Shown: positions 27,132-48,271 of the stretch, one piece after another
How the letters are laid out: every line of letters begins with the position of its first letter
Position numbering within the stretch: the first letter of the stretch is position 1
Assembly: GCF_002162375.1 (NCBI RefSeq)
Contig: NZ_CP021425.1
Span: 1,237,501 to 1,301,500, forward strand
Direction: 5' to 3'
DNA from: Oleiphilus messinensis
GTDB lineage: Bacteria; Pseudomonadota; Gammaproteobacteria; Pseudomonadales; Oleiphilaceae
DNA length: 64,000 bases
Translations under genes and position numbers: made by a program
Notes under the pieces: model-generated
Seen by the model: the letters and a program-made list of their open reading frames with translations, nothing else
The model's database searches: none
Told to the model about the DNA's origin: nothing

Positions 27132-27162
27132 TTTTTGCAATTTGAAATGCAAATTGCGAAAT
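27132..27162. promoter_or_regulatory. Candidate activator-binding element of the exopolysaccharide locus, site 1
   Basis: TTTTTGCAATTTG and AAATGCAAATTGCGAAAT form an imperfect palindromic block rich in TTGCAA. The core TGCAAATTGC (27148-27157) recurs exactly at 43075-43084, and a related block lies at 36424. It lies about 77 bp upstream of the predicted initiation from the sigma54 promoter at 27198, a suitable place for an enhancer-binding response regulator. Confidence 0.5.
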
Positions 27163-27197
27163 ACCTCGTTTATGCCTCTGATTCAAGCCATTTCGCT

Positions 27198-27214
27198 CTG
27201 GCCTGAGCTTTGCA
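27198..27214 (+). promoter_or_regulatory. Sigma54 (-24/-12) promoter before the first glycosyltransferase operon
   Basis: CTGGCCTGAGCTTTGCA has GG and GC separated by exactly ten bases and matches the consensus TTGGCACGnnnnTTGCA well at both ends. It precedes the glycosyltransferase at 27278 by 64 bp. The sigma54 activator encoded at 53334 is the likely partner. Confidence 0.65.
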
Positions 27215-27277
27215 ACAGATCAGGTTGGTGGTGAATGAAATCAAAGCTGGGTCAAGTTAGTTGATGAGGGTAAAACG

Positions 27278-28291
27278 ATGACCAAAAAAGCGGTTGTTTT
27301 ATTTTTAGATAGTCGGGGAATGGGGGGAATCGAGACTCATGTGCGAAATCTGGCTGCGGCGCTCTGCCGGAATAATTTTGAAGTTCGCGTGCTGTTGTGG
27401 CGCCGTTACGGGAAACATCCGTTGGAGGCTGAGCTGGGCGGGATGGGTATCACACTGGAGTCGTGTGATGGGCGCATCGGTAAGTTGTTACAGCAACTGA
27501 AATCGGGCGAGCACACACCAGGCGCTAAAACGCCGGTACTTCATAGTCATGGTTACAAAGCAAATTTGATCGGGCGCTTTCTCCGTTTGATTCGGGGGAT
27601 TCATGTTGTCAGTACTTATCATAATGGTGACCTGGGCTCGGGGCGATTGCGGCTCTACACCGCATTGGATTGTATGAGTGGCATATTGTCACGGAACATT
27701 GCTGTCAGTGCGGAGATTCAGGCCCGTATTTGGGGAACCAAAAAACATATTCCCAACTTCGTAACGGTGCCGGAACGCAGTGCGTGGCAGGGTATGAAAC
27801 GTTCAATCGGCTTTGTGGGGCGGCTGGAGCCGGTCAAGCGACCGGACCGGTTTATCCAGCTGGCGCGCCAGCTTCCGAACTGGACCTTTCACCTTTTTGG
27901 CGATGGTGGGATGCGTGCCGAATTAAGTGCCGAAGCGGCACCCAATGTGGTTTTCTGGGGGCAGGTGAACGCTATGGATGCTCACTGGCAGCGCCTGGAT
28001 TTACTCGTTATCTGTTCCGATGCTGAAGGTCTACCCCTGGCAGCTCTGGAGTCAATGTCTGTAGGGGTACCGGTTGTTGCTCGGCCATTAGGCGATTTAC
28101 CTGTCTTGATCGAGCACGGGGTTAACGGGTATCTCGCGGACTCACTGGCTGACTTTGAATCCGTAATTCAACAATGGCAGCGTCTTTCGTTATCTGCAAA
28201 GACACAAATTTCCCGCAGGGCAATAAGCCGGGTGCGGGAGCATTATTCCGAGCAAACCTGTGTTGAGCAAATCAGTGCGCTCTATGCATAG
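27278..28291 (+). CDS. Glycosyltransferase family 4
   Basis: A GT-B glycosyltransferase of 337 residues, shorter than average. It has the N-terminal GGIETHV acceptor-domain motif (residues 17-23), the FVGRLEPVKRPD stretch opening the nucleotide-sugar domain (about 185) and the EGLPLAALESMSVGVPVV signature with its EX7E pattern near 255. GAGGGT precedes the ATG. It is co-transcribed with the REC-GGDEF gene (17-bp gap) and driven by a putative sigma54 promoter. It should add one sugar to the lipid-linked repeat unit in the cytoplasm; donor and linkage unknown. Confidence 0.85.
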   Translation: MTKKAVVLFLDSRGMGGIETHVRNLAAALCRNNFEVRVLLWRRYGKHPLEAELGGMGITLESCDGRIGKLLQQLKSGEHTPGAKTPVLHSHGYKANLIGRFLRLIRGIHVVSTYHNGDLGSGRLRLYTALDCMSGILSRNIAVSAEIQARIWGTKKHIPNFVTVPERSAWQGMKRSIGFVGRLEPVKRPDRFIQLARQLPNWTFHLFGDGGMRAELSAEAAPNVVFWGQVNAMDAHWQRLDLLVICSDAEGLPLAALESMSVGVPVVARPLGDLPVLIEHGVNGYLADSLADFESVIQQWQRLSLSAKTQISRRAISRVREHYSEQTCVEQISALYA

Positions 28292-28308
28292 ATTTATGGA
28301 GGTTTACG

Positions 28309-29328
28309 ATGATTGATCTGTTCCAATGTAGTCCTGAAACCGGCCGAAGTTTATCGGTCGTGACGGAGCGCCCTGATTTTCCGGTATTACTCGTAGATGA
28401 TGATGTCGTGTTCCGGGAATTAGCCTTGTTATTCTTGCAGGAGGAAGGGTACGTTGTTGAGGCCGTTGCGGATGCCTATGAGGCGCAAATCCGGATTCAG
28501 GAAAGGCATTATCCACTGATTCTCTGCGACTGGATGATGCCTGAAATGAATGGTCTCGAGCTCTGCTCGCGCTTGCGGCGTTGTTCCGAGCCTTATCATT
28601 ACATCATTCTCCTAACCAGTAAAAATGATGAGGATGAAATTGTTACCGGACTGAATGCCGGTGCTGATGATTATATTGTGAAAGGCGGTCGTAAATCAGA
28701 ATTACTGGCCCGACTGGATTGTGGTGTTCGAATATTAATTCAGCAGCGCCTGTTGGAACAACAGAAACAGGAAATTTTACAGCAGGCGCAACGGGACCCC
28801 CTCACCGGTGCTTATAATCGCGGCTATTTGACGCAAACACTGGTCTGCGAACTTAAACGTGCCCAACGTTACCAATTGCCCACCAGTGTGCTTCTGGCGG
28901 ATATCGACTTCTTTAAATCGGTCAATGACCGTTACGGTCACCTGGGGGGAGATGAAGCGTTGAAAGCATTTCTACAGGTGTTGTTACAGAACATTCGCGT
29001 GAATATTGACTGGGTGTGTCGATATGGCGGTGAAGAATTTGTGATTGTACTCCCGAACACAGAACACAAGCAGGCATTGTTGGTAGCGGAAAAGTTGAGA
29101 GCTGCGGTGCGGGCGATGACCATTCAGTTCGAAAATACAACAATCCAGCTTACCGCCAGTTTTGGCTTGGCCACTTACCCTGATGATTTAACGTGTAATA
29201 AATCGGATGATGTGTCTTGCGATCAATCCGATCTTGACGAATCACCACTTGATAACCTGTTGAAACTGGCAGACGACCGTCTCTATCGCAGTAAACAAAA
29301 TGGCCGGAATAAAGTTACAGGCCGTTAA
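28309..29328 (+). CDS. Response regulator with diguanylate cyclase output (REC-GGDEF)
   Basis: The REC domain (about 25-140) keeps the acidic pair DDD (30-32), phospho-acceptor Asp74 in CDWMMPEMNG and Lys in IVKGG. A short coiled helix links it to a GGDEF domain (about 165-335) with intact active site GGEEF, DIDFFKSVND metal ligand and DPLTGAYNR start. The position for the inhibitory RxxD site upstream of GGEEF lacks the Arg, so product feedback is doubtful. Being in an exopolysaccharide operon with a sigma54 promoter, it likely makes c-di-GMP when matrix is produced. The cognate kinase may be the hybrid kinase at 48272, but this is a guess. Confidence 0.9.
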   Translation: MIDLFQCSPETGRSLSVVTERPDFPVLLVDDDVVFRELALLFLQEEGYVVEAVADAYEAQIRIQERHYPLILCDWMMPEMNGLELCSRLRRCSEPYHYIILLTSKNDEDEIVTGLNAGADDYIVKGGRKSELLARLDCGVRILIQQRLLEQQKQEILQQAQRDPLTGAYNRGYLTQTLVCELKRAQRYQLPTSVLLADIDFFKSVNDRYGHLGGDEALKAFLQVLLQNIRVNIDWVCRYGGEEFVIVLPNTEHKQALLVAEKLRAAVRAMTIQFENTTIQLTASFGLATYPDDLTCNKSDDVSCDQSDLDESPLDNLLKLADDRLYRSKQNGRNKVTGR

Positions 29329-29332
29329 TCCG

Positions 29333-29359
29333 ACCGGGTGATGTTTTTACACACCCGGT
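29333..29359. terminator. Hairpin between convergent operons
   Basis: ACCGGGTG and CACCCGGT form an 8-bp stem around an 11-base loop containing five T residues. It lies 4 bases after the GGDEF stop and 22 bases from the stop of the convergent glycosyltransferase, so it may end both transcripts. The trailing T tract is weak. Confidence 0.5.
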
Positions 29360-29380
29360 ATTTATTCCCCGATATTCGAG

Positions 29381-30352
29381 CTACTGAGCCTGTTTGTGTC
29401 TGAGCAACTGTTCCGGTAGCATGAGTATCGCTTTTACCATTTCCTTGAAGTAGCGTTCACAAGGCTGTTGCATAAATGCCTTGCACGAGTATAAAAACTT
29501 GCCCCACTGGTTTTGTCTGCTGTCACAGTACTCTGCTTTTGCCACGGAAATACGAGCCTGGGCAATACGTTTTACATGATGATTCTGAGTCGCTGCATGG
29601 TTAACGTGCCGTGCTGTGATGCTCTCCATCGCAGCTATCCGGTTTTTGATATTACTGGACACCGATCCGGAGCGCATCAAATAGAGCATGGTTTTTTCCA
29701 TCGTGAACCCGACATCACCCAGTGCTGCAAGCTTGAGCCATAAATCCCAGTCACTGGCTGATTTTAACGCCGTATCGAAGCCCCCTACAGCCAGGAATGC
29801 ACTTCTTGCCACGAGGGTTGTGGAGGTGCCGACCACATTTTCGCTAAACAGTTGTGCCAGGGCATTTGTCAGTATTTGGTAACCCTGAAGTTCGACGCTC
29901 TCCAACCGGTTGGTTTTTCTGAATAACGGCCAGTAATCAAAGCATCCGATGATGGCATCACCGGTATCTTCTTTGATATGTTCGTAATCGGTAAAACTCA
30001 GCACCACATCCGGATTGTTTTTGTGAAAGCGCATTTGCTGCTCCAGCTTCCCCGGTAACCAGACATCATCCGCATCGAGAAAGGCGAGATAACGTCCCCG
30101 GGCAATTTGCGCCGCTGTGTTTCGTGCGCCTCCTGGACCTAATTTATTTTCATAGAGAACGGTAAGGCATTCCAGTTGTTCTTCTTTCTCGCTCAACCAC
30201 GTTTTTGAGCCATCAGTAGAGCCGTCATCGACAACGATAATTTCGTATTCGTTATAGCTTTGTTGCAAGATACTGTTCAGCCAGGCCTCCAGGTAAGGAA
30301 GGCAATTGAAATTCGGTGTAATAATACTCAGTTCCGGTACAGATTTTGGCAT
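29381..30352 (-). CDS. Glycosyltransferase family 2
   Basis: A GT-A enzyme of 323 residues. It opens with ELSIITPNFNCLPYLEAWL, has VVDDGSTDGSK near residue 40, the DADD metal-binding motif in FLDADDVWLPGK near 95, and the SASDWDLWLKL acceptor segment near 215. It is the last gene of the five-gene minus-strand operon running from 36252, 28 bp after the polymerase gene. It should extend the polysaccharide repeat unit. Confidence 0.88.
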   Translation of the reverse strand: MPKSVPELSIITPNFNCLPYLEAWLNSILQQSYNEYEIIVVDDGSTDGSKTWLSEKEEQLECLTVLYENKLGPGGARNTAAQIARGRYLAFLDADDVWLPGKLEQQMRFHKNNPDVVLSFTDYEHIKEDTGDAIIGCFDYWPLFRKTNRLESVELQGYQILTNALAQLFSENVVGTSTTLVARSAFLAVGGFDTALKSASDWDLWLKLAALGDVGFTMEKTMLYLMRSGSVSSNIKNRIAAMESITARHVNHAATQNHHVKRIAQARISVAKAEYCDSRQNQWGKFLYSCKAFMQQPCERYFKEMVKAILMLPEQLLRHKQAQ

Positions 30353-30380
30353 GGCGCACCTCGTTTTTGTGATTCGATAT

Positions 30381-31820
30381 TTAAGACGGTTCCCGTTTCC
30401 CGCTGATCTGAAAACAGGAGGTTGGTTGAAATTGGGTTGTGTTGTTTTCCGGGGTCTCTGTTTTGGTTCTGCAGTGCGAATCCAGGTAGTAATTTAATCC
30501 GATGGTCAGCGCCATAAGGATATACAGTGGCCAGATAAAACCCTGAGTCAGAAATGTTCCGGAGATGCAAAACCCGGCAAGACCCGACTGCAGGGCGTTG
30601 CCCATAACACATACACTGGGCGGGAGTCCGGGGTTTAACCTGATGCGTTGATTGTTCTTTCGGGTGAATTGAAAAGTGCTGTACACCAAAATGATAAAGA
30701 TGATCAGTCCCAGGAAACCGGATTCGGCGAGCACCTGGAACCACGTACTGTGCACAGCATGATTTTTGCCGTCCCAGTGGGGGCTGTGGAAATAGTAATT
30801 GGCGTAAAAATTATTGATACCCACTCCGGTGAGCGGGTGGTGGGTCGCCATACTGATAGCAGCTTGCCAGGCATAAATTCGACCCATTGCGGATTCATCA
30901 ATACCCTCTTCCGCAGCGCCACCGGACTTGCGCTCGGAAAGGCCCGCCAAGGCACCAAGGATCGCCAGCGCCAGTACCCCGGCCGCGATGACCAGTGCTT
31001 TTCGTTTAGTCGATTGCCAGGCTAACAGTCCCGTGACCGTCGTCATCCCGAGTAGACCGCCACGGCTTTGTGTACATAGAATAGCCCAGGCGATGATGCC
31101 GTAGCCGAGTACTGCAAAAAGCCTCAAGTATCCGGGGCTGCGCTTACTGAACAGCATTCCGGCTGCGAAACTGAGTGGAAACGTGAGCACCAGGGCAAGA
31201 TCATTCGGATCACCAATCATCGAACCGATATTGCGACCGATGGTTACCCGTGTACCCTCCACCAGTCCAATGCCGTTTAACTTGTTGGTGATCGCGATGC
31301 TACCAATGACACAGCCCGCCAGGATGATCAGCATGCTGCAGCGATGGAAGTCTTTGGGGGTTCGGATTAACCAGGCAATCGCACAAACCATGATCGCGAT
31401 CTTTGAAAAGGTGCCAGTGATCGCGCCGATTGCCGCCCCCCGGTCGGTGGCAAAAACTGCACCCAAACAAATCAACAGAAAGAACAGACTGAACAGGGTT
31501 AACAATTTGGACCAGTACAAGCTGATGGTGTTCGCGATGAAAATGTGCCATCCCAACACCGCGAAGGAGGCCAGTGCCAGTAGCTGAGGTATTTTGAAGG
31601 GCATGAGTACCGGAATCGCTTCGTGTATCCGGAAAAATGAAAAAATAATAAACCCCAGACAAACCCAAACCGGATTGCGAAATACTGCAATGGCAATGGG
31701 AACCAGCACGGGTATCGCGATTCCGAACAAGGGATTGGGCAGGGTCGACATGATGCCCCCCAACACAATAGATGCGAACCCGGCGAGACTGACTTGTTGC
31801 AGTTTGATATTCCCCGTCAT
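30381..31820 (-). CDS. O-antigen ligase/Wzy-type polysaccharide polymerase
   Basis: This 479-residue protein has about twelve hydrophobic helices. A large periplasmic loop carries the SRGGLLG motif near residue 230 and HNAVHS-like sequence (GKNHAVHSTWFQVLAESG) near 335, the pattern of the Wzy_C/O-antigen ligase superfamily. Its ATG overlaps the stop of the flippase gene by four bases (ATGA), so expression is coupled. In this locus it is the probable repeat-unit polymerase. A ligase function is less likely as no lipid A-core genes are near. Confidence 0.82.
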   Translation of the reverse strand: MTGNIKLQQVSLAGFASIVLGGIMSTLPNPLFGIAIPVLVPIAIAVFRNPVWVCLGFIIFSFFRIHEAIPVLMPFKIPQLLALASFAVLGWHIFIANTISLYWSKLLTLFSLFFLLICLGAVFATDRGAAIGAITGTFSKIAIMVCAIAWLIRTPKDFHRCSMLIILAGCVIGSIAITNKLNGIGLVEGTRVTIGRNIGSMIGDPNDLALVLTFPLSFAAGMLFSKRSPGYLRLFAVLGYGIIAWAILCTQSRGGLLGMTTVTGLLAWQSTKRKALVIAAGVLALAILGALAGLSERKSGGAAEEGIDESAMGRIYAWQAAISMATHHPLTGVGINNFYANYYFHSPHWDGKNHAVHSTWFQVLAESGFLGLIIFIILVYSTFQFTRKNNQRIRLNPGLPPSVCVMGNALQSGLAGFCISGTFLTQGFIWPLYILMALTIGLNYYLDSHCRTKTETPENNTTQFQPTSCFQISGKREPS

Positions 31821-33289
31821 ATTGGATTTACCGCCATGCGGGGTGAGGGGCCGACCGAAAGCAGCCCGGCTTTATAGATTAAAGCCAGGGTTAGCCCTGC
31901 GGTCAGGCCAACGCTGAACAGTGCGGCAGAAAAGTCCAGCCGGGATGCGAATCCGAGGCCAAGAGCACAGAGCAAGGCACTCCCGAAAATTGTGCCGTAA
32001 CGGTATGGCAGGTGTAGCCGCTTCTGGCTCGCTCGGACAAAGAGAATCGTTCTGCCAAGGTACACCGCAACAAATCCATAGACCAATCCGGGTAGCGAAA
32101 ACAGGTAGATTGCAATACTAAACGTCCCCAATGCGAGTATCGAGGTTACTGCATTGAGTTTGAACACGATGGTTGGGGATGTATTGGTATAGCATCCGGT
32201 ATTCAGCAAGTGTGAGCATTGCTTTAAGGCCATGGCAAAACAGAGCATGGGCAACAGGTTTGCTGCCGGATGGAATTCTGCTGGCAGCCAGAGCTGGACA
32301 ACATGAGGTGTAATCCAGCCAAATATGAGTGCAGACAGGAACGAAAAGCAACAGCCGAGTGAGGCCAGGTTGCCATTGCAGATTCGACCGTTTGCCTGCT
32401 GTAGCAATTCAAATCGTTTCGGAAACCACCACATCGCGAAGGGCTCCAGTGCCAATGGAACCAGTGCAGCAAACTGGATAGCAACAGCGTAAAGAGCGAG
32501 AGATTGAGTATCGGTGAGAGCGGCCAATATCCATTTTTCCGCACCAAATGTCAGGAATACCAGTAAACCTGAAGCGATAATCGGGGTACTGTATTTCAGC
32601 AGTTCGAGTGCGCTTTGTAACCAAAAGCCTTGTGCCGTTTGTGTGGTAGATAAAACTGGCTTGACGATTATTTTTGGTAGAACGAAACGGTTCAGCGCAA
32701 TTACCAGGAACATTGAGGAGAACAGGCCGCTGAGCAGGACTCCGTCAATACCTGCGCCCAATTCCAGCAACACGAATGTGGTTGCCGCCTGGAACGCGGC
32801 TTTGCCTGAGGTGAGCCAGAAAAACAGGCTGGCTTGCTCCTGGAGTCGCAACCAGGCGAGTGGTAGCGCTGTAGCTGCGGTCACGACAAGAACTGCGCTG
32901 GCAAGGAGCCATTGGGTGTCAGTTATGTTTCCGGGCAGCCATTCAGGGGCATAATCCTTTAGCGCAAAGCAAAGCAGAAAGCCCAGTATACAAGCCATGA
33001 TCTGCACTCGATAAGCGACGCCTGCTACCGCTGCTTTTCGTTCTACTGTCTTGCTGCTGCCGACGAAACGATACATCGCCTCTGTGAGACCCAGGCCGAG
33101 TAGTATGCCGCCAACGCTGAGCCAGGTGAGCAGAATATCCAGGCTACCGAATGACTCAGTGCCAAGATAGCCAGTGGTGATGGGCAAGATCAGAAAAGCA
33201 CTGCCTTTCATCACCAGAAGCCCGGCGGCATAGTAGGCAGTCTGCTTTAAAACGCTTTGATTTTCGGTCAATTTCATCGCTAAACCCAT
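31817..33289 (-). CDS. Wzx-type polysaccharide flippase
   Basis: A 490-residue membrane protein with about fourteen hydrophobic helices and the N-terminal pattern of the MOP superfamily (AYYAAGLLVMKGSAFLILP, GYLGTESFGSLD). It should translocate the undecaprenyl-linked repeat unit to the periplasmic face. The ATG at 33289 follows a TTG at 33292; ATG at 33277 is a further option. It lies between a glycosyltransferase and the polymerase in the minus-strand operon. Confidence 0.85.
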   Translation of the reverse strand: MGLAMKLTENQSVLKQTAYYAAGLLVMKGSAFLILPITTGYLGTESFGSLDILLTWLSVGGILLGLGLTEAMYRFVGSSKTVERKAAVAGVAYRVQIMACILGFLLCFALKDYAPEWLPGNITDTQWLLASAVLVVTAATALPLAWLRLQEQASLFFWLTSGKAAFQAATTFVLLELGAGIDGVLLSGLFSSMFLVIALNRFVLPKIIVKPVLSTTQTAQGFWLQSALELLKYSTPIIASGLLVFLTFGAEKWILAALTDTQSLALYAVAIQFAALVPLALEPFAMWWFPKRFELLQQANGRICNGNLASLGCCFSFLSALIFGWITPHVVQLWLPAEFHPAANLLPMLCFAMALKQCSHLLNTGCYTNTSPTIVFKLNAVTSILALGTFSIAIYLFSLPGLVYGFVAVYLGRTILFVRASQKRLHLPYRYGTIFGSALLCALGLGFASRLDFSAALFSVGLTAGLTLALIYKAGLLSVGPSPRMAVNPI

Positions 33290-33337
33290 CAATTTCTGGC
33301 TGTTTTTTTGAGTTAAGGTGTTTAAAAAACGACGTTG

Positions 33338-34522
33338 TTAGATACAGCGTTCAATGGCCCCCGACAGGATTTTGCATTGATGTAATGCGCTGTAGTGGTT
33401 CTCAATCCGGGCTCTGGCCGACTCTGTAAGTTTTTGCCTCTGCGGCTGGGACATCGCCATCATTTTGAGAATGGCCTCCCCCAGTGCGACCTTGTTCCTG
33501 GGCGGGACCAGTATGCCGGTCTCCGTGTTTCCCTGAAGATTCGAGCCGAGGATATCCGGACAACCCATGAACGCCGTGGTAATCACAGGCAGACCGATTG
33601 CCATAGCTTCTTTCAACACCAACGGCCCGGTATCCCGATCGCCGTTGCTGGCTTCGTGAAACGGTGCGAGCAGTGCCACATAGGACGCGCCATAGCGACT
33701 GATCCATTGGCTGTCTTTGGCACCCAGAAACGCAACTGACTCGTGTAGATTTAAACTCAGTTGCAGTTGCTCCAGTTGTGTTTTCATTGCGCCTTCCCCG
33801 ACAATATCCAGTTGAGGGCGCGCTTCCCGGGGTAGACCAGCAAGTGCTTCAAACAAATAAGTCAGGCCCTTTTTTTCAGTCAACCTGCCGATAAAAAGTA
33901 AACGACCATTGTGCTGCTGAGTGGCACGGTAAGGGAATCGGTGAAGTTCGAGACCGCATTGCACCAATTCTGTTGTTCCTGCGTGGTTCAGGCGAAGGAA
34001 ATCCTGTTGCATTTGTTTGCACACGGCGACAGAAAAATTTGCAGCTCGCAATTTCAGTGCAAGATCTGCGGGGGTGGCGTAGATATCAAAACCATGACCA
34101 ACAAATGAAACCGGAATTTTGAGCAACTTTGCCGCGGTAATGGCCGCCGCGGCGGTATGCAGGGCAAAATGTGCATGCAGGTGATTACACCCGGTGCGCT
34201 CGGCAATGTAAGCGATTTTGGCACTGAGTAGCAGGAGCGATTTGGCGGGAATGCTTTTCTGTGCTCGCGCGAAGCTCACGGCATCGGCACATTGCGATAA
34301 CTTTCGGACAAAGCTTGCCATCGCTTTAGCCCGGCCGATGTTTTCCAGGTAGTGGGTCTCACTTGCGATACTCTGGTCATAGGGTTGGGCCGCCGAGTTC
34401 GGCCGAGTGATTGAAATGGGTACGACCTCATGCCCCAGCAAACCCATGGAGCGCATTTCTGTCCCAATGAAGGTCTCTGACAAGACCGGAAATCCGGATA
34501 AAACGTAGCCAATTTTTTTCAT
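33338..34522 (-). CDS. Glycosyltransferase family 4
   Basis: A GT-B enzyme of 394 residues. The ATG at 34522 is chosen since it overlaps the stop of the preceding gene as ATGA and has AGGG upstream; the frame itself extends to 34549. It has the YVLSGFPVLSETFI start typical of the WcaL/exosortase-linked GT4 subgroup, HLHAHFALHTA near 115, FIGRLTEKKG near 220 and the DTGPLVLKEAMAIGLPVI EX7E region near 295. It works with the other transferases of the locus; donor sugar unknown. Confidence 0.87.
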   Translation of the reverse strand: MKKIGYVLSGFPVLSETFIGTEMRSMGLLGHEVVPISITRPNSAAQPYDQSIASETHYLENIGRAKAMASFVRKLSQCADAVSFARAQKSIPAKSLLLLSAKIAYIAERTGCNHLHAHFALHTAAAAITAAKLLKIPVSFVGHGFDIYATPADLALKLRAANFSVAVCKQMQQDFLRLNHAGTTELVQCGLELHRFPYRATQQHNGRLLFIGRLTEKKGLTYLFEALAGLPREARPQLDIVGEGAMKTQLEQLQLSLNLHESVAFLGAKDSQWISRYGASYVALLAPFHEASNGDRDTGPLVLKEAMAIGLPVITTAFMGCPDILGSNLQGNTETGILVPPRNKVALGEAILKMMAMSQPQRQKLTESARARIENHYSALHQCKILSGAIERCI

Positions 34523-36252
34523 GCGATAGCCCTGCTGTTGTCTTTGCAATGAGGGGGCGTTTTATCCAGCAGCGCAAACCACACGGCGCAGAACCCCATA
34601 GTCTGGTGATAATTGGGACTGGCCATTAACGTCTGAGTGGCTTTTACCTGATCCTGCCCGGAGATGCCTAAAAAGCTCAGGGCACTGTGTAAAACACTCG
34701 GGCCGAGAGTCTTCGCCCAGGGGCCATATTCAAACATCGGCAGGTTTGCTTTCCCCCAGCGAGGCGTTAAACCCAGTCGACTGATCAAACCCGGATACCG
34801 GGCTGAGAAACTCAAACCCCGATTCAACGGGGCATTGGTTTTGTCCCAATCGATGCCTGCAAGACGAGGGGATAAGCGATTGATGGCACGCAGGTGAAAT
34901 CCGCTGCCCAAGTGGTATCGAACGGGCAGGTTGATCAGCTGTTTAAGCACATCGCCGTCCAGAAAGGGGTGGCTGCGATCATAGTGTTGATCCAGTGCAA
35001 GCTGGCCGTTCACGACCATGCGGGGTAACCGGTAGCGCAAATAGAACAGGTTGAGACAGTTTGCGACCGAAAGATCCAGGTTAAAACAGTTATCGATTGC
35101 TCGATCCCTTACTGACCCAAGCTGCTCCGCAATACCAGGAAGTGCTGCGACCAACGGTGCTGCTGTTTTGGCATACTCTTCGAAGACATAGCGTCTTCCC
35201 CGGGCATTTAGCTGTTTGCGAAAAGCGGGAATGGCAAGTACAGACATTCCGGGTACCCCGCGGTCAAAATAGAATGCCCGGAAGGTTTCAGCTCCGGTGC
35301 CCGTCAACAGGGTTCGACCAGCGGACTGTTCAAGTAAACTGCGATCCAGTAGCGAATGGGCATGATGCACTGCGAGCTCACCACCACCTAAATCGGCAAT
35401 GCGCTGGATGGTATCCCATGTCAGGTGTCCGCAGGAATTTGAGTCCTTGGTTTGTTGGGATCTGAAGATGGGAAACTTGCAGGATCGGGCAAGTTCATTA
35501 GCAATGCGCACATCTGCACTTTTCGGGTGGCCGTATGATAAACCGATCGCTTTGTTACCAGTACATTGCAAAGCGGCAAGTATGAGCCGTGAATCCAGGC
35601 CACCAGAAAGGGAAATCAAGGGGGCGCTGCTGGCGTTAGCCGACTTTTTTACGGCCTCGACGATCGCGTCCAATGCTGAGTCGAATGAACTGGTTTGATG
35701 TCGAAACAAGTCGTCGCTCGGGGTGGTGCGGGACGTGAGTACACCAAAGGTATTGATACTGATTAGTGTTCCCGGGGCATGATGCTGTGCGCCAGCCAGA
35801 CCACTTTGGTTATCCAGAAGTTGTCCATAAGCGAGTAATTGTCCCAGGGCGTCCGGATTTAACGATAATTCCGTAGCGCCACTTGATCGGATTTGTTGTG
35901 CACTGCTGCCGAGCAAATAGCGCCCTTTTTGCCAGAGCGAGATAATCGGAAACAACCCCAGGCGGTCGAGTGCCGCATCAATGCGGTTGTCAATTTCATG
36001 ATAGACCAGCCAGGAGCGACCAAAATAACTCTTGTAGGTGTTTAGCCGGATGTTTTTAACGATCTGTTGGTCCTGATCCTGTTGTGCTGGATCCCCCCAA
36101 ATATAAATTTTCATATTGGCAATGGCATACGTCCTTGCTGATCCCTCATTTCCCGCAGGGCGTACCTTCCCGATAAACGCCGAGGCTTTTGCTTCCATTC
36201 CCTGTTTAGCCATCCTGGATTGAAATTGAAACTCGAAAAATGCTGTAGCCAT
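34519..36252 (-). CDS. Asparagine synthase-like amidotransferase lacking the N-terminal Cys
   Basis: This 577-residue protein has the two-part asparagine synthase architecture. The C-terminal ATP-pyrophosphatase domain is intact with the PP-loop SGGLDSR near residue 214, so it can probably adenylate a carboxylate. The N-terminal glutaminase half begins Met-Ala-Thr and lacks the nucleophilic Cys at position 2, so it cannot release ammonia from glutamine in the usual way. Members of this superfamily occur in exopolysaccharide loci, where they are thought to modify sugars. GGGGAA is eight bases from the ATG. It leads the minus-strand operon, behind a sigma54 promoter at 36308. Confidence 0.8.
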   Translation of the reverse strand: MATAFFEFQFQSRMAKQGMEAKASAFIGKVRPAGNEGSARTYAIANMKIYIWGDPAQQDQDQQIVKNIRLNTYKSYFGRSWLVYHEIDNRIDAALDRLGLFPIISLWQKGRYLLGSSAQQIRSSGATELSLNPDALGQLLAYGQLLDNQSGLAGAQHHAPGTLISINTFGVLTSRTTPSDDLFRHQTSSFDSALDAIVEAVKKSANASSAPLISLSGGLDSRLILAALQCTGNKAIGLSYGHPKSADVRIANELARSCKFPIFRSQQTKDSNSCGHLTWDTIQRIADLGGGELAVHHAHSLLDRSLLEQSAGRTLLTGTGAETFRAFYFDRGVPGMSVLAIPAFRKQLNARGRRYVFEEYAKTAAPLVAALPGIAEQLGSVRDRAIDNCFNLDLSVANCLNLFYLRYRLPRMVVNGQLALDQHYDRSHPFLDGDVLKQLINLPVRYHLGSGFHLRAINRLSPRLAGIDWDKTNAPLNRGLSFSARYPGLISRLGLTPRWGKANLPMFEYGPWAKTLGPSVLHSALSFLGISGQDQVKATQTLMASPNYHQTMGFCAVWFALLDKTPPHCKDNSRAIA

Positions 36253-36307
36253 AAGATGCTTCCCCAGAGCTGCTGATCGATCAGTTTTTTACCTTACTGA
36301 AGGGCAG

Positions 36308-36324
36308 AGCAGCTTTTGTGCCGA
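36308..36324 (-). promoter_or_regulatory. Sigma54 (-24/-12) promoter of the minus-strand operon
   Basis: On the minus strand TCGGCACAAAAGCTGCT has GGCAC and GC with exactly ten bases between GG and GC. It lies 56 bp before the asparagine-synthase-like gene and so would drive the flippase/polymerase operon. The TTGCAA-rich block at 36424 lies about 137 bp upstream of the predicted start. Confidence 0.65.
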
Positions 36325-36423
36325 TCTTGGTTTGATATTTTTTATTTAATTAAAACAGTTGCTTATAAATTTTCCGTCGCAGGGTGCGCGGGTTTATCAA
36401 GATTGAGGAGGCCGTGATTCCCG

Positions 36424-36444
36424 TTTTGCAAATCATTTCGCAAT
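36424..36444. promoter_or_regulatory. Candidate activator-binding element, site 2 (between divergent operons)
   Basis: TTTTGCAAATC followed by ATTTCGCAAT resembles the blocks at 27132 and 43059 in carrying TTGCAAAT and TTCGCAA units. It lies in the 332-bp gap 36253-36584 between the divergent operons. On the minus side it serves the promoter at 36308. On the plus side only an imperfect GG-N10-GT sequence (TTGGAATGCAATGTGTA at 36508) is visible. A TTTTTAGTCTA block at 36468 recurs at 43108. Confidence 0.45.
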
Positions 36445-36584
36445 CCAAGCGCGCCAATGGTGTGCTGTTTTTAGTCTAAGTGTTTGTAAATAAACATAAT
36501 TGTAGAGTTGGAATGCAATGTGTATTCAGGGAGTAACGGTTTCTGATAATGAATTTAGTCAGTCCTGCAGGGGGAGGGTTCAGT

Positions 36585-37298
36585 ATGAGTGTAGTAAGTG
36601 GTTCGTTGCTGTGGCGTAAATGGATAAAAGAAAGCGATAACGCCATTGCTGGCAGTATTCGAAAAATTTATCGGGGGCTTGTCCAGATCCAGTGTCCCTT
36701 GATTCGTGTGGTTCACCATCCTTTGTATGTTGTACATCTGGCGCTTTCGGCACTGATCAGACAGTGGTGCAATTTCTGGTACTGGACGCCCTTGTTCAAA
36801 TCGCGATTAAACTCCGCACCAAAGGTGCTGCATCTTTACTCCGGTATGCCGCAAGTCATGGGGGCTCTGGAACTTCACATTGATGAGGGGGCTCGAATTT
36901 CAGGGCACTCCAGCTTCTTCGGTCGCTCGGTGAGTGGGCGAATACCGACTCTGACAATAGGGCGAAATGTAGATGTCGGTTGGCAAACCACAATCGCGGT
37001 GGGGACGCGAGTGCAACTGGATAATGATGTTCGCATTGCCGGTAAATGCTATCTCGCCGGGTTTCCAGGCCATCCGATTAATCCGGAACCCCGGCGTCTT
37101 GGCCTTCCGGAAACGGATGACCAGGTCGGTGACATTGTGCTTGAAGAAAATGTCTGGCTGGCCACCGGCGTGACGGTATTGCCGGGAGTTCGAATTGGTC
37201 GCAATTCGATTATCGGTACCAATAGTGTGGTTACCCGGAATATTCCAGCCAATGTTATTGCTGCCGGGTCACCAGCACGAGTCATTCGTCAGATTTGA
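36585..37298 (+). CDS. Hexapeptide-repeat acyltransferase
   Basis: ATG at 36585 is preferred over 36549 because AGGGGGAGGG lies seven bases upstream. The 237-residue product has a hydrophobic, basic N-terminal third (possible membrane-associated helices around 40-70) and a C-terminal left-handed beta-helix. It shows repeated hexapeptides such as LTIGRNVDVG, VWLATGVTVLPGVRIGRNSIIGTNSVV and the closing VIAAGSPARVIR typical of serine/sugar O-acetyltransferases. It probably acetylates a sugar of the polymer or its precursor. It heads the plus-strand operon. Confidence 0.85.
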   Translation: MSVVSGSLLWRKWIKESDNAIAGSIRKIYRGLVQIQCPLIRVVHHPLYVVHLALSALIRQWCNFWYWTPLFKSRLNSAPKVLHLYSGMPQVMGALELHIDEGARISGHSSFFGRSVSGRIPTLTIGRNVDVGWQTTIAVGTRVQLDNDVRIAGKCYLAGFPGHPINPEPRRLGLPETDDQVGDIVLEENVWLATGVTVLPGVRIGRNSIIGTNSVVTRNIPANVIAAGSPARVIRQI

Positions 37299-37332
37299 TT
37301 TGCAGATACTAGTTTACGAGAGGAATTTCAGC

Positions 37333-38559
37333 ATGACCATGCTCGTTGTTTTTGGAGAGGATTGGGGGCGTCATCCAAGCAGTACCCAGCACCTTATCAG
37401 CATCCTGCGTAATGATTACGATGTGCTTTGGGTTAATTCGATTGGTCTGAGACGCCCAAAGTTTCGCTTAGCTGACTTTATTCGTGTTGTGCAGAAAATC
37501 GCATACTCCATGGGAAAACAAGGCCTAAGCAAAGCTTGTACAGTCCGCGGTGAAGATAAACAAAGCGACCACCGAAATCGTTTTACGATTGTTCAACCTC
37601 TGGTGTTGCCATTTTTCAGTGTCGGTATTTGTCGCCTTTTAAACGGTTTGCTCCTGCAACATAGGCTCCGGAAGTATCTACCATCGGAGCAAAAAGTAGT
37701 GCTTTGGTTATCGTTACCTTCCGCAGTGGACGTCGTCGGCAAGTTGGGGGAAAGTCATGTTGTGTATTACTGTGGCGATGATTTTTCCGCATTGGCCGGG
37801 GTGGACCATAACCCCATAAGCAGTATGGAGCAAGAACTCCTGGCGAAAGCCGACACGGTGCTGGTCGCCAGCGAAGCGTTGCGAAAAAAGTTCGCGCCAC
37901 GGTATAGCGTAGTTATTCCCCATGGCGTGGACGTGAGTCTGTTCAAGCCTGGTCTCCGGTTGCCGGAGGATCTACCGAAAGGGAAACCGATTGCAGGCTT
38001 TTACGGTGCCCTGGCCGACTGGATCGACGTTGAGTTACTGACCAAGGTTGCCCGTGACTGCCAGTCGTGGAATTTTGTTTTGATTGGCCCAGTCAGCACA
38101 GACATTGCACCACTTGCTGCCTTGGATAATGTCACGATTTTGGGGGCCAAGCGTCATCAGGATTTACCGGCCTATGTCAGTGGCTGGCAGGTTTCATTGT
38201 TGCCCTTCAGGTCGTGCCCGCAGATAAAGGCCTGTAATCCTCTCAAACTTAGAGAATATCTTGCGGTGGGCAAGCCGGTTATTGCAACTGATTTTCCCGC
38301 ACTGGATGGTTATCGAGACTGTGTGAACATTGTCGACAGCGCTGAATCGTTTGTGACAGCTCTGCGTGAAATCAATGCCCGTGAATATGCACCTGATTGT
38401 GCCCCGCAACATCGAAAAAATGTAATGACCCGTCGAACCCGGGTGCTCTCCGAAAGCTGGCTGATGCGTGCGCATGAGGTTCAGCGGTTGTTACCGGAAT
38501 CCCGTTTGGGTCCAGATCCTGTTGAAACCGGTTCAATGGGGCTGTCTGACCAGGCTTAA
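37333..38559 (+). CDS. Glycosyltransferase (GT1/GT4-like)
   Basis: The frame opens at 37195 inside the previous gene, but ATG at 37333 has GAGAGGAAT upstream and starts with a MTMLVVFGEDWGRHPS beta strand. The 408-residue protein has a GT-B layout: VVYYCGDDFSAL near 145, VIPHGVDVSLFKP near 195, GFYGALADWID near 225 and CNPLKLREYLAVGKPVIATD near 300. The donor-site Glu is in the KLREYLAVGKPV segment. It belongs to the acyltransferase-Wzz operon. Confidence 0.83.
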   Translation: MTMLVVFGEDWGRHPSSTQHLISILRNDYDVLWVNSIGLRRPKFRLADFIRVVQKIAYSMGKQGLSKACTVRGEDKQSDHRNRFTIVQPLVLPFFSVGICRLLNGLLLQHRLRKYLPSEQKVVLWLSLPSAVDVVGKLGESHVVYYCGDDFSALAGVDHNPISSMEQELLAKADTVLVASEALRKKFAPRYSVVIPHGVDVSLFKPGLRLPEDLPKGKPIAGFYGALADWIDVELLTKVARDCQSWNFVLIGPVSTDIAPLAALDNVTILGAKRHQDLPAYVSGWQVSLLPFRSCPQIKACNPLKLREYLAVGKPVIATDFPALDGYRDCVNIVDSAESFVTALREINAREYAPDCAPQHRKNVMTRRTRVLSESWLMRAHEVQRLLPESRLGPDPVETGSMGLSDQA

Positions 38560-38597
38560 TGGCTTTGAGTCTAAGTGGATGAGAAGGAGCTGGAGTG

Positions 38598-40076
38598 ATG
38601 AAAAGTAGCGTGTTTTTAAATCTTTACTTCGCCTTTTGGGCTGCATGGCGGCGGCGTTACCTTATTGTGATCCCCATCATGATCATGCCATTTATTATGT
38701 TGGCTCTGGGGGCGATGACACCCAAGAAATACCAAAGCCACACCACGATGCTGATTCAGGAGACCACGAAGTTGAACCCTTATCTGGCCGACTTTGCGGT
38801 CTCGACACAGTTAAAAGAGCGAATGGCCGCACTCAAAGCGCTGCTGCATAGCCGGCACATGCTTTCTGAAGTGGCGCTGGAATTAGGGGAAATCAAGACT
38901 CGGGATTCAAAGTTGGCGGAGCAGGTGATTAGCCGTTTGTCTGCATCCTTGACCGTGCAACTGATCGGGTCGGATATGATCAAGCTGGTTCTGGTCGCGA
39001 ATAAACCAACACATATGGAAAAAACCCTGTCAGTTGTTTCTGATCACTTTCTGGCCAAGTTGCTGGCCCCGGAGCGATCTTCTATTCGTGCCTCGGAAGT
39101 ATTTCTGGCGACTCAACTTAAAGCCCAACACGAATCATTACTCGCGGCGGAAACGGATCTGGCGATGTTCAAGCGAAAAAATTCCGCCCATTTGCCAGAT
39201 CAGTATAACTACGATGTGCTGCAACTTCGGGATCTGGAGGCCAAGCTGAGGGAAAGAAGTATGGCGCTCTCGGGCGCTCAAGGGCAGCTGAAATCCTTGA
39301 AAACCCAACTGTTAAAAACCAATCCGATGCTGGCATCCATAGAGGAGTCCATTGTTCAGGAAACGGCGAGACTGGCGTTGTTGAGTTCGCGCTATACCGA
39401 TCGCCATAGCAGTATTGTCTCTGTCAAAGCGTCATTGCAGCGACTGGAGCGGGAGCGTGATTCGATTTTGCAAGCGGTTGGAGGACTTTCCACTCAGGAT
39501 ATGGAAAGTCTCTGGCAACTAGCGAGTAACTTGTCAGTCAATGCTTCGGAAACCGCTGTGCGCCCGCTTCTGGTGTCGCAGATGGAGGCGATTGAAAAAG
39601 CAAAATCCACAGAGGGGCAGCTTATTGAAGAAACCCGGCAATTGACTGCGGAAATAACCCAGCTAACCCTCAAGCTGGAGCGTTTTGCGGCGGTAGAGCA
39701 ACAGATGACGGAGCTGGAACGGGATATTCAAACCAAACAAAGTCTCTACGATGACTTATTGAAAAGACATGAAATGGCCAAGGTTACGGAGGCGTTGGGG
39801 CGTTTTGAAGAACAGGACCGGGTGAAAATTATCGACTGGCCTTACACGCCCTATGGGCCGGTCAATTTACCACTTTATCTGTACGGCGTTCTCGGAATTG
39901 TGGCGGGATTGTTTCTGGGGATTGCCTTGTCTTTGGTGAGTGAAATATCGAACACCGCAATCGTCCGTAGAGATGCGGTAGAACGGCTTATTGGTGTGCC
40001 GGTTTTAACACGTATTCCGAAATTGTCCGGTTCACTGAATTGCAGCAGCTTACAAATTGAAGAGGATTACCTATGA
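38598..40076 (+). CDS. Wzz/GNVR-type chain length determinant
   Basis: ATG at 38598 has AAGGAG at eight bases and is preferred to the GTG just before it. The 492-residue protein has a transmembrane helix near residues 20-42, a long periplasmic coiled-coil region (about 150-390) and a second helix near 435-455 followed by a short cytosolic tail without a kinase domain. This is the polysaccharide co-polymerase layout without the fused tyrosine kinase. The separate ATPase at 46690 could be its partner. It controls chain length and export of the polymer. Confidence 0.88.
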   Translation: MKSSVFLNLYFAFWAAWRRRYLIVIPIMIMPFIMLALGAMTPKKYQSHTTMLIQETTKLNPYLADFAVSTQLKERMAALKALLHSRHMLSEVALELGEIKTRDSKLAEQVISRLSASLTVQLIGSDMIKLVLVANKPTHMEKTLSVVSDHFLAKLLAPERSSIRASEVFLATQLKAQHESLLAAETDLAMFKRKNSAHLPDQYNYDVLQLRDLEAKLRERSMALSGAQGQLKSLKTQLLKTNPMLASIEESIVQETARLALLSSRYTDRHSSIVSVKASLQRLERERDSILQAVGGLSTQDMESLWQLASNLSVNASETAVRPLLVSQMEAIEKAKSTEGQLIEETRQLTAEITQLTLKLERFAAVEQQMTELERDIQTKQSLYDDLLKRHEMAKVTEALGRFEEQDRVKIIDWPYTPYGPVNLPLYLYGVLGIVAGLFLGIALSLVSEISNTAIVRRDAVERLIGVPVLTRIPKLSGSLNCSSLQIEEDYL

Positions 40077-41155
40077 AAAAACGACCCGTGCACGTCCAGG
40101 TTGTGCAGCACCTTGCACCTGGTGGAATTGAGACCATGAGCCTTGATTTAAAACAATTTGCCAATGCCGAGGTGGAAGTACATATCGTGAGCCTGGAAGG
40201 TAGCAAAGCTGAGATGATTGCCCGTTGGCCCCGGCTGGCATCGATCTCTGAATCTTTACACTTTTTGGAAAAACCTCAAGGGGTTGCGCCAAAGACAGTC
40301 TGGAGGCTGTTTCGTTTGTTACTGCGGCTGCGTGCGTCTCTGGTTCATACTCACCATATCGGTCCGTTGCTTTACGGCGGTTTTGCCGCCCGCCTTGCCG
40401 GTGTTCAGCAGATCATTCATACCGAACATGATGCCTGGCATCTGGAGAATAACAAGCACCAGCGTTTGATGCGCCATTCTGTCAAGCTCTTCAGACCCAC
40501 GGTAGTGGCGGATGCACAATTAGTCGCTCGAAAATTGGAGGAAAAAGTATCCTGCGCAGCGCCCAGAATTATTCACAATGGTATTAATACCCAGCGCTTT
40601 ATTCCGGGTGACCAACGGCTCGCGCGGAAAGCATTGGCCTTACCCCGTGACAAATGGCTGGTGGGTTGTGCTGCCAGACTGCAGGATGTAAAAGGTCATG
40701 ATGTACTTCTGGATGCCCTGTTTCGCTTACCTCGGCAAGTTCATGTTGTGCTGGCGGGCACGGGGCCCGCTGAATCGGCGTTACGGCAACAGGTTATGGA
40801 TTTGAATCTGTCCGGGCGGGTTCACTTTCTCGGGCACCTTGATGATATGCCGTCTTTTTACCAAGCCCTTGATGTCTTCTGTCTGGCGTCTCATCACGAG
40901 GGTATGCCCTTGTCTCCACTGGAAGCGCAAGCCTGCGGAGCGCCGGTTGTATTGTCTGATGTTGGTGCCTGTTCAGAAACCGTCTGCCCCGCTACCGGAT
41001 TGCTGTTTCCTGCGGGCGACTCCGCTGCACTGGGTCGCGCATTGGAGCGTCAGCGTAAGCAAGCTCCCGGCATTTCACCAAGAGACTTTGTGGTTCGCGC
41101 CCGGGATGTGCGACGGATGATTCGTAATTATCAATCGTTGACGTCAGGCATCTGA
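40073..41155 (+). CDS. Glycosyltransferase family 4
   Basis: A 360-residue GT-B enzyme coupled to Wzz by an ATGA overlap. Diagnostic stretches are HLAPGGIETMSLDL near residue 15, VHTHHIGPLLYG near 95, IHNGINTQRF near 165, CAARLQDVKGHDVLLDAL near 200 and HHEGMPLSPLEAQACGAPVVLSD near 285, which holds the EX7E pair. It acts on the lipid-linked intermediate in the cytoplasm; sugar unknown. Confidence 0.88.
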   Translation: MKKRPVHVQVVQHLAPGGIETMSLDLKQFANAEVEVHIVSLEGSKAEMIARWPRLASISESLHFLEKPQGVAPKTVWRLFRLLLRLRASLVHTHHIGPLLYGGFAARLAGVQQIIHTEHDAWHLENNKHQRLMRHSVKLFRPTVVADAQLVARKLEEKVSCAAPRIIHNGINTQRFIPGDQRLARKALALPRDKWLVGCAARLQDVKGHDVLLDALFRLPRQVHVVLAGTGPAESALRQQVMDLNLSGRVHFLGHLDDMPSFYQALDVFCLASHHEGMPLSPLEAQACGAPVVLSDVGACSETVCPATGLLFPAGDSAALGRALERQRKQAPGISPRDFVVRARDVRRMIRNYQSLTSGI

Positions 41156-41193
41156 ACGTCGGGCGAGCTGTAACTAATTTGTGGGAGGTTGTT

Positions 41194-43014
41194 GTGACAC
41201 TGTTAATTCTCTTTATTACGCTTTTCGCGGGTATGTTAATTCTCTACCACCATCTGGTGTACCCGGTGCTCTTGAAGCTGTTGGCAAAATGGCGGGTGCG
41301 AAACGAACTGTCAGAGCCATCGCGCGAACCGGAATGCACCAGTTTTCCATTTATCACGGTGGTTGTGCCTTGTTATAACGAAGCTGCTGTTATTGCAGAA
41401 AAAATGCGCAATTTTACCTTTCTCGATTATCCTGCGGACCGGTTTTGCGTACGGTTCATCAATGATGGATCTACCGATCAAACTCAGTCTATTTTCCAGA
41501 AAACGATACTCGAGCCCGGATTTACCGGGCTGAATATTACGATGATTCAGCATCGGGACAACCGCGGAAAAGTGGCTCGAATCAATGAGGCTCTGGCAGC
41601 CATTGAAGACGGGCTTGTGGTGTTATCGGATACATCTGCGCTGATTTCCATGGACGCATTTCAGATCATCGCGCAGCGTTTTCAAAACCCCAAAGTCGGG
41701 GTCGTTGCGGGTACCTATCAAATTCTCGTACCGGGTTCTCGGGGTGAATCGGCCTATTGGCAGTATCAAACAAAAATTAAAGCAATGGAGAGTGCATTAG
41801 GTTCTGCTATCGGAGCCCACGGAGCGCTTTACGGGTTTCGCAGAGCGCTGTTTGAGCCTTTGCCTGTCGACACAATTAATGATGATTTCATTTTACCCAT
41901 GGAAATCGTCAAAAAAGGTTACCAGTGTGAGTATGTCAACGATATTGTCGCGGTGGAATTGGAGCAGGCCTCTCTACACCTGGATCAACGGCGTCGAGTG
42001 CGGATATCAATGGGCAACATGCAACAGGCGATTCGCCTCAAGGGGCTGCTCAATCCGCGCCTGGGTGGGGTCGCGTTCAATTTTGCATCGGGTAAGTTTC
42101 TGCGGGCCTGGATGCCTCTGATCTTGCTTGTGTTCTTTACCGGTACGCTGGTCTTGAGTGCCCAGTCCGGCTTTTTTGCCAGCCTGGCGCTGTTGCAAGT
42201 GCTGGCCTACAGCCTGGCAGCGTTGAAGCAGCTTTTACCGAACTTGAAATGGCCTAAACCAATCCAGCTGTTGCATTATCTGGTGAGTGGACATGTCAGT
42301 AATGGTATTGGATCGCTGTATTACTTTTGCAATCGAAAATCAGGTGCGCCCTGGTCCAGAGTAAAAGCGAGTTCGGGCGCTCAGCATTACATTCCTGTGT
42401 CCATTCTGTTCAGTAAACGTTTGGTGGACTTTTGTCTTGCCAGTTTGGGCGTTCTCATAACTTTGCCTGTATGGCTATTGATCGGGTTGGCAATAAAACT
42501 CGAGTCCCGAGGCCCGGTGTTCTTCAGGCAAATGCGTGTTGGCAGGATTCTACCGGATCGAGCAGAGCTCTTTATGATGATTAAATTTCGAACAATGGTT
42601 CAGGATGCGGAAAAAGAAACCGGGGCCGTCTGGGCTCAGGATCGTGATCCCCGCATCACAAGAGTCGGCTGGTTTTTAAGAAAAACGCGGCTCGACGAGC
42701 TTCCCCAGCTACTGAATGTGATTAAAGGCGAAATGTCCTTGATCGGTCCTCGACCTGAACGACCTGGAATTGGCGGGCGACTTGATGCGGCGATTCCCTA
42801 TTATGCAGAACGAACCTGTTTTGTCAGTCCGGGGATTACCGGTTTTGCCCAAGTGCATCAGGGTTATGATACCTGTCTGGATGATGTTAAAAGCAAATTG
42901 CTCTATGACCACGCCTATGCAATTGCCTTGAGCCGGTTCCGTGCCTGGCTTCTCATGGATCTAATGGTCATTTACAAAACGCTGCTGGTTATGGTCTTGG
43001 GTAAAGGTCGATAG
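41194..43014 (+). CDS. Fusion of family 2 glycosyltransferase and initiating sugar-phosphate transferase
   Basis: GTG at 41194 follows GGGAGG at five bases and is preferred to upstream TTG. The 606-residue protein has an N-terminal helix, a GT2 domain (about 50-285, VVPCYNEAAVI, FINDGSTDQTQ, DTSA metal site, QRRRVRISMGN) and more helices. From about residue 405 a complete monotopic phosphoglycosyl transferase domain follows, with KRLVDFCLASLG, KFRTMVQDAE, LRKTRLDELPQLLNVIKGEMSLIGPRPERP and PGITGFAQV. It can thus both place the first sugar phosphate on undecaprenyl phosphate and add a sugar. The position corresponds to the initiating enzyme SypR of the syp system, which I recall as unfused. 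Confidence 0.88.
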   Translation: MTLLILFITLFAGMLILYHHLVYPVLLKLLAKWRVRNELSEPSREPECTSFPFITVVVPCYNEAAVIAEKMRNFTFLDYPADRFCVRFINDGSTDQTQSIFQKTILEPGFTGLNITMIQHRDNRGKVARINEALAAIEDGLVVLSDTSALISMDAFQIIAQRFQNPKVGVVAGTYQILVPGSRGESAYWQYQTKIKAMESALGSAIGAHGALYGFRRALFEPLPVDTINDDFILPMEIVKKGYQCEYVNDIVAVELEQASLHLDQRRRVRISMGNMQQAIRLKGLLNPRLGGVAFNFASGKFLRAWMPLILLVFFTGTLVLSAQSGFFASLALLQVLAYSLAALKQLLPNLKWPKPIQLLHYLVSGHVSNGIGSLYYFCNRKSGAPWSRVKASSGAQHYIPVSILFSKRLVDFCLASLGVLITLPVWLLIGLAIKLESRGPVFFRQMRVGRILPDRAELFMMIKFRTMVQDAEKETGAVWAQDRDPRITRVGWFLRKTRLDELPQLLNVIKGEMSLIGPRPERPGIGGRLDAAIPYYAERTCFVSPGITGFAQVHQGYDTCLDDVKSKLLYDHAYAIALSRFRAWLLMDLMVIYKTLLVMVLGKGR

Positions 43015-43058
43015 ACAGGACGCATTGATTGTTGGAAGCAGGGAGGCTTTCCCGTCTG

Positions 43059-43086
43059 TTCGCAAAATGCGATTTGCAAATTGCAT
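43059..43086. promoter_or_regulatory. Candidate activator-binding element, site 3
   Basis: TTCGCAAAATGCG and ATTTGCAAATTGCAT form a TTGCAA-rich block sharing TGCAAATTGC exactly with site 1 at 27148 and TTTGCAAAT with site 2 at 36425. It lies about 104 bp upstream of the start predicted from the sigma54 promoter at 43149. Confidence 0.5.
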
Positions 43087-43148
43087 CTCACCCTCATAAA
43101 TCACCTCTTTTTAGTCTACTAATGCAATAAAAACAGTGTCTTATAAAT

Positions 43149-43165
43149 TTGGCACGGTAATCGCT
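43149..43165 (+). promoter_or_regulatory. Sigma54 (-24/-12) promoter of the syp-like regulatory/export operon
   Basis: TTGGCACGGTAATCGCT matches the consensus TTGGCACGnnnnTTGCT at every defined position but one, with GG and GC ten bases apart. It is the best of the three sites. It lies 41 bp before the STAS gene and so drives an eight-gene operon that contains the sigma54 activator itself, giving a possible positive loop. Confidence 0.75.
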
Positions 43166-43205
43166 CTGCTTACTTCAGGTTACCTTAACGATTTGGAGAA
43201 GAGTG

Positions 43206-43574: not shown

Positions 43575-43605
43575 CGGAAAGCTTGTATACGACGAGGAGG
43601 GCAGG

Positions 43606-46688: not shown

Positions 46689-46689
46689 T

Positions 46690-47388: not shown

Positions 47389-47406
47389 GGGAGGTAAGTC
47401 AAGCGC

Positions 47407-48240: not shown

Positions 48241-48271
48241 CCAATAAATCACTTGCAGATAGAGAGCGGAA

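Follow-up and report, generated by a model that had tools for sequence, protein, structure and literature searches.

Putative sigma54 promoters with tandem LuxO-type elements in a syp-like polysaccharide locus of Oleiphilus messinensis

The genome of the gammaproteobacterium Oleiphilus messinensis encompasses a syp-like polysaccharide locus, at approximately 27.1-54.8 kb of the 64,000-nucleotide stretch analysed here (hereinafter, the window; bases 1237501-1301500 of the 6.38-Mb single-contig genome), in which three operons are each preceded by a sigma54-like site. The reading that we favour, with a probability of roughly 0.8, is that these sites are sigma54 promoters of the locus, equipped with tandem LuxO-type enhancers that would be bound by the locus's own SypG-like activator. 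Co-regulation by this activator was the core of the original prediction, which had been made from the letters of the window. It appears to be well supported by comparison, namely, the conserved pairing of element and sigma54 site at orthologous promoters, the association with sypG and the LuxO-type character of the box. In other respects the proposal fares less well: operon 4 comes without a convincing sigma54 site, and the element near 36.4 kb convinces only through its conservation.

Sigma54 sites and paired dyads

Sigma54 sites were scored over 11 consensus positions of a 16-base core. A dyad was defined as the 13-bp pattern T(T/C)GCA-N3-(T/C)GC(A/G)A, that is, TYGCA-N3-YGCRA, and a tandem of two dyads was scored out of 20. 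All three predicted sigma54 sites were found in their places, with a pair of dyads upstream of each (Table 1). Taking the transcription start to lie about 12 bp past the GC, the element centres would fall near -78, -134 and -103 for operons 1, 2 and 3, respectively, in agreement with the TTGCAA-rich blocks that had been placed 77-137 bp upstream; the string TGCAAATTGC is indeed exact in two of the three elements. Candidate divergent sigma54 promoters at elements 1 and 2 were not accepted (best score, 7/11). Divergent sigma54 promoters that seem to share one central tandem element were seen in other loci (L134, L135, L139, L140, L142, L148, L252, L255, L257 and G007).

So how unusual is such an arrangement? 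Single TTGCAA, TTCGCAA or TTGCGAA blocks number 52 in the window, 15 of them in stretches of 50 bp or more between genes, with 6 of these 15 located in the three elements; being so common, lone TTGCAA blocks were rejected as evidence. Likewise, single dyads with at most one mismatch number 281 on the forward strand of the genome, compared to 210 for the reversed control. Thus, the expectation that such blocks stand apart from random intergenic places fails for single blocks and holds for dyads that come in pairs before a sigma54 site. Such a pair, spaced by 12-14 bp and followed by the site (tandem at least 17/20, sigma54 at least 9/11), occurs twice in the window and never when the 64 kb were subjected to 60 dinucleotide shuffles. 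Among 22 perfect dyads, a second dyad of at least 7/10 is located at -12 in 4 cases and at +12 in 6, against a background of 1.2% per position, which means that some sites lack a good second dyad; a further peak at offsets of +/-7 (5 and 8 of the 22) was ascribed to self-overlap and discarded.

Conservation at orthologous promoters

The pair of element and sigma54 site recurs outside the window. A genome from another genus of the same family (G007) carries the whole locus and has the pair before the STAS gene (10/11), the AsnB-like gene (8/11) and the first glycosyltransferase gene (9/11), that is, the same three genes as in the window. A member of another family (G351) has it before the STAS and the AsnB-like genes (sigma54 9/11 at the latter). 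Before the orthologue of the operon 1 glycosyltransferase, both components are present in G309 (sigma54 9/11) and in L134, here with a weaker sigma54 site (8/11), and in G044 the exact dyad TTGCAATTTGCAA, which matches the LuxO box, occupies this position.

The regions upstream of STAS were subjected to a uniform scan, with 500 shuffles per piece of genome and pieces at p<=0.01 counted. Element and sigma54 site were detected in 26 of the 31 pieces: 23 of the 24 with sypG on the piece and 3 of the 7 without; in 3 of the 26 positive pieces, the sigma54 site has GT in place of GC. The p-values are not all independent because the motif was derived and widened on some of the tested pieces (its initial form came from the window, G007, G018, G024, G036 and G044, and G/T was admitted at position 3 once L138 and L241-L243 had been seen). 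In this sample, L018-L020 hardly differ from one another, and a single family, to which G308 belongs, contributes 13 of the 24 sypG pieces. The count excludes L130 and L136 (equivalent to L026, Zooshikella; no Wza found and no element), L030 (28 bp upstream only), L032, L252, L255 and L257 (distant STAS), L134 and L142 (STAS not on the piece), and L024 and L025 (apparently identical to the contigs of G44 and L019).

Ten further loci encode activators close to SypG, and in 7 of these the element (a perfect dyad or a tandem of at least 16) and a sigma54 site of at least 9/11 precede various genes; L175, L180 and L181 lack the combination at that level. SypG-like genes also matched seven plasmid records (Azospirillum, Aeromonas, Paroceanicella), and of the four examined, L185 has a joint site and L182-L184 have none. 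In L178 and L179, element and sigma54 site are located before the activator's own gene, which suggests autoregulation. In L027, L028, L033 (Moritella), L130 and L136, STAS and SypE-like genes were seen together, with neither sypG nor the element on the piece. In Pseudoalteromonas (L031, 5650-5990), a 15-bp unit is tandemly repeated directly beside the dyad upstream of STAS.

Genome-wide searches

The original prediction had proposed a genome-wide motif search, and when this was done with models derived from other genomes only, element 1 came first in the genome. With model R1 (ten elements, alignment A2), it is the top match of the whole genome, with an expect value (E) of 0.0012 against 0.51 for the next unrelated match. 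With model R2 (21 elements with an offset of 12, alignment A4), it again ranks first in the window's genome, G000 (E 0.018; next, 0.125). Seven other R1 match regions were inspected: six are contained in an open frame of 90 codons or more, and a sigma54 site of at least 9/11 within 350 bp is missing from all seven. Across six genomes (one without a match), 7 of the 14 distinct untrained R2 matches fall in polysaccharide loci, with a binomial P of about 6e-11, calculated with locus bounds set by the analyst and a locus taking up about 1% of the genome or less. Four of these seven precede a sigma54 site of 9/11; the remaining three, all in G309, were paired with no sigma54 site in the joint scan, and the best that one of them has is an 8/11 site, which no frame follows.

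The activator and its relation to LuxO and SypG

The GAFTGA-containing activator that had been assigned to the locus is indeed encoded there, as the last gene of operon 3. Its best NCBIfam model is LuxO (NF041946), with 671 bits, below the curated cutoff of 800 for membership, and the closest solved chain is LuxO 5ep0 (E 7e-149, residues 2-389). By sequence, then, the activator belongs near LuxO. The published boxes are TTGCAWWWTGCAA for LuxO and TTCTCANNNTGMDWN for SypG, and at qrr1 of Vibrio fischeri these boxes overlap, LuxO and SypG alike being dependent on them (PMC10162802). The window dyads correspond to the LuxO box in a degenerate form, with a pyrimidine at position 2 and at least one mismatch each; they do not match the SypG motif, being of the TYGCA type. 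We class the window element as a tandem LuxO-type box.

The claim that the element differs in appearance from that used by SypG in Vibrio is not well supported, given the overlap of the LuxO and SypG boxes at qrr1 and also a gradation into the TCTCA-N3-TGAGA type within a single family. In the family of G308, the STAS promoters carry either TCGCAAAATGCGA (L241) or TCTCAAAATGAGA (L138, L244), and the helix-turn-helix (HTH) stretches compared between L241 and the other two differ in nothing but Val/Ile. Because they interchange under a nearly unchanged HTH, the LuxO and SypG boxes look like variants of one element. The same comparison of L241 with L138 weakens the idea that the HTH simply decides between TCGCA and TCTCA. 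Half-sites of the TCTCA or TTTCA form occur in 7 of 14 loci with a SAAT HTH versus none of the 9 S[AP]ST loci that have the element (Fisher p 0.019, ignoring relatedness; 13 of the 14 SAAT loci come from one family).

A tentative scenario is suggested by these observations, with the Vibrio elements and activators entering the comparison through published descriptions. The tandem dyad might be an old, general recognition element of the LuxO/SypG branch, serving polysaccharide loci across Gammaproteobacteria, with the LuxO and SypG boxes of Vibrio as two descendants and a Ser-to-Ala replacement in the HTH (S[AP]ST to SAAT) allowing the TCTCA form; we hold the odds to be somewhat against this scenario in full.

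Alternative explanations

Not all observations fall into line with control of the three operons by the SypG-like activator, and those that weigh against it have to be put together. Matches at the level of element 2 (tandem 15/20, sigma54 9/11) arise about 0.9-1.0 times per shuffle, which is not significant by itself, and the window contains one further match of this level, inside a gene (32110-32264). Element 2 is missing from the 11 R1 matches and ranks below a match inside sypG with R2; element 3, with a 14-bp spacing that fits the models badly, is the last of the 11. At the orthologue of operon 1, the pair is absent before the glycosyltransferase in G351, and in G044 no GG-N10-GC site follows the element. 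L132 has sypG and neither element nor sigma54 site, the sole failure among the 24, and L135 and L140 have both with no sypG on the piece. Operon 4 has no convincing sigma54 promoter, its best site (at 36509) scoring 7/11. Finally, ten other places in the genome match the activator at E<=1e-60 (identities, 38-48%). In eight cases the match stops short of residue 391 and in one at 441, and one, a sigma54 activator at 4057024-4058013, reaches residue 468 and thus aligns over the HTH too, with 40% identity.

Could it be that only operons 1 and 3 are under this system, the match at operon 2 being a leftover or a chance site? The frequency of comparable matches in shuffled windows is what one would expect under this view, and it led us to reject element 2 as an independent finding; the element was kept because the combination with a sigma54 site is conserved before the orthologous AsnB-like gene, in G007 and G351 alike, and we consider the restriction to two operons unlikely. 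It is also quite improbable, in our estimation, that the sigma54 promoters are real and the main protein on the dyads is some other regulator, be it a different sigma54 activator or a repressor. Candidates are at hand in the at least ten other activator matches, including the one that extends over the HTH, and three pieces have the element without sypG on the same piece. Such a regulator is hard to reconcile with the strong link of the element to sypG (23 of 24), with the presence of a sypG-like gene on another contig in one of the three exceptional pieces, G775, and with the identity of the box, which belongs to LuxO, the named protein most closely related to the activator. That the entire pattern is a chance similarity in AT-rich intergenic DNA, where single blocks and single dyads abound, is hardly credible, being contradicted by the R1 genome search, the absence of the strict pairs with sigma54 sites from the 60 window shuffles and the 26 of 31 positive STAS pieces.

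Organization of the locus

The joint presence of STAS, Wza, SypE-like and SypG-like genes and polysaccharide genes places the locus among the syp-like loci, and three of its four operons have putative sigma54 promoters upstream. The sites do precede three operons, as predicted, and the description of these as the main ones left out operon 4 (Table 1). No sigma70-like match was found for operon 4 at 36200-36700 (shuffles average 0.8), and no Rfam match in the window; rpoN is present in the genome. The SypE-like gene is infrequent, being found in 7 of 97 relatives; among 390 genomes from the order it occurs in 15, and among 369 from the class in 4 (the window's genome is included every time). 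An IS200/IS605-type pair, Y1 transposase and TnpB-like protein, is located at 55173-56667, directly downstream of sypG. A PhnD-type binding protein near a SypG-like activator was seen repeatedly (window 47407-51742, L172, L174, L254, L252 and G351:C3:45369-46218), with element and sigma54 site directly preceding its gene in L172, L174 and G351, and also in loci without Wza on the piece; this protein may be a sensor part that feeds a hybrid kinase.

Table 1. Operons, selected genes, sigma54 sites and paired elements (window coordinates)
Feature	Position	Strand	Content or sequence	Score or basis
Sigma54 site, operon 1	27199-27214	+	TGGCCTGAGCTTTGCA	9/11
Sigma54 site, operon 2	36323-36308	-	CGGCACAAAAGCTGCT	9/11
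Sigma54 site, operon 3	43150-43165	+	TGGCACGGTAATCGCT	10/11
Element 1, upstream of operon 1	27135-27159	+	dyads TTGCAATTTGAAA / ATGCAAATTGCGA, starts 12 bp apart	tandem 18/20
Element 2, upstream of operon 2	36419-36443	-	weak dyads TTGCGAAATGATT / TTGCAAAACGGGA, starts 12 bp apart	tandem 15/20
Element 3, upstream of operon 3	43060-43086	+	dyads TCGCAAAATGCGA / TTGCAAATTGCAT, starts 14 bp apart	tandem 19/20; p=0.002 vs 500 shuffles
Operon 1	27278-29328	+	glycosyltransferase 27278-28291, REC-GGDEF protein 28309-29328	Pfam; gap 17 bp
Operon 2	29381-36252	-	AsnB/amidotransferase-like, glycosyltransferase, Wzx-like, Wzy-like, glycosyltransferase	Pfam, weak NCBIfam matches; gaps <=45 bp
Operon assigned to second promoter, shorter bounds	34519-36252	-		
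Operon 3	43203-54752	+	STAS (SypA-like), OmpA, Wza with three SLBB domains, BY-type kinase, PhnD-type binding protein, hybrid kinase with Hpt, SypE-like, SypG-like	Pfam, NCBIfam; gaps <=75 bp
SypE-like protein	51717-53258	+	HATPase-REC-PP2C	Pfam
SypG-like sigma54 activator	53334-54752	+	REC, AAA+ with GAFTGA, Fis-type HTH	Pfam and sequence
Operon 4	36549-43014	+	hexapeptide transferase, glycosyltransferases, Wzz-like (chain length), initiating transferase	

Proposed mechanism

In this family, the activators attach to dyads located upstream and use their GAFTGA loop, powered by ATP hydrolysis, to open the sigma54 polymerase. For the locus of O. messinensis, we infer binding, phosphorylation, activation and feedback along the same lines. 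The SypG-like activator would be phosphorylated, most likely via the hybrid kinase of the locus, and would then bind the dyads as an oligomer; the DNA would loop over some 80-135 bp, allowing the AAA+ domain to open sigma54-RNA polymerase at operons 1, 2 and 3. We propose positive feedback on sypG because this gene lies in operon 3, and co-induction of the REC-GGDEF protein, which operon 1 encodes. After transcription, the STAS protein is probably under the control of the SypE-like protein, as in Vibrio fischeri, where SypE switches SypA between phosphorylated and free forms (PMC4517449).

Under this hypothesis, three isolated sequence matches become a regulon that can be tested, its sites being defined in many genera, and polysaccharide control outside Vibrio becomes linked to the DNA element behind the quorum-sensing small RNAs of Vibrio. 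A possible origin of the LuxO/SypG site overlap at qrr1 is suggested, too, and the transition from TCGCA to TCTCA under nearly the same HTH offers a natural promoter series for studying shifts in activator specificity. A description of the enhancer outside Vibrionaceae was not found in a literature search that did not extend to the original paper on the syp enhancer, reportedly Ray 2013.

Comparison with known systems

The closest parallel is the syp locus of Vibrio (Aliivibrio) fischeri, in which all four operons have a sigma54 promoter and are equipped with sites for SypG, the activator encoded by the locus itself (PMC10804989). The two loci also share STAS, SypE-like and SypG-like proteins, SypE acting on SypA in V. 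fischeri (PMC4517449). They differ in gene content and operon layout, with a PhnD-type protein in an operon here, and in the site, which is TTCTCANNNTGMDWN there (PMC10162802) and TYGCA-N3-YGCRA here. The LuxO/qrr system resembles ours in the dyad TTGCAWWWTGCAA, the dependence on sigma54 and the REC-AAA+-HTH architecture of the activator (PMC10162802, PMC11443567), whereas the targets of LuxO are small RNAs and those in the window are polysaccharide operons; the dyads here and in related loci are usually 12 bp apart, in contrast to 14, 17 and 30 bp for the qrr sites of V. fluvialis (PMC11443567). With regard to the scv locus of Vibrio parahaemolyticus, for which the excerpts of the publication describe no enhancer element, control by the sigma54 response regulator ScvE and the occurrence of syp/scv loci in 28 genera have already been published (PMC8941931); Hahella is not mentioned in the main text of that paper. 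Both systems have a sigma54 response regulator in charge of the same kind of locus, spread over Gammaproteobacteria.

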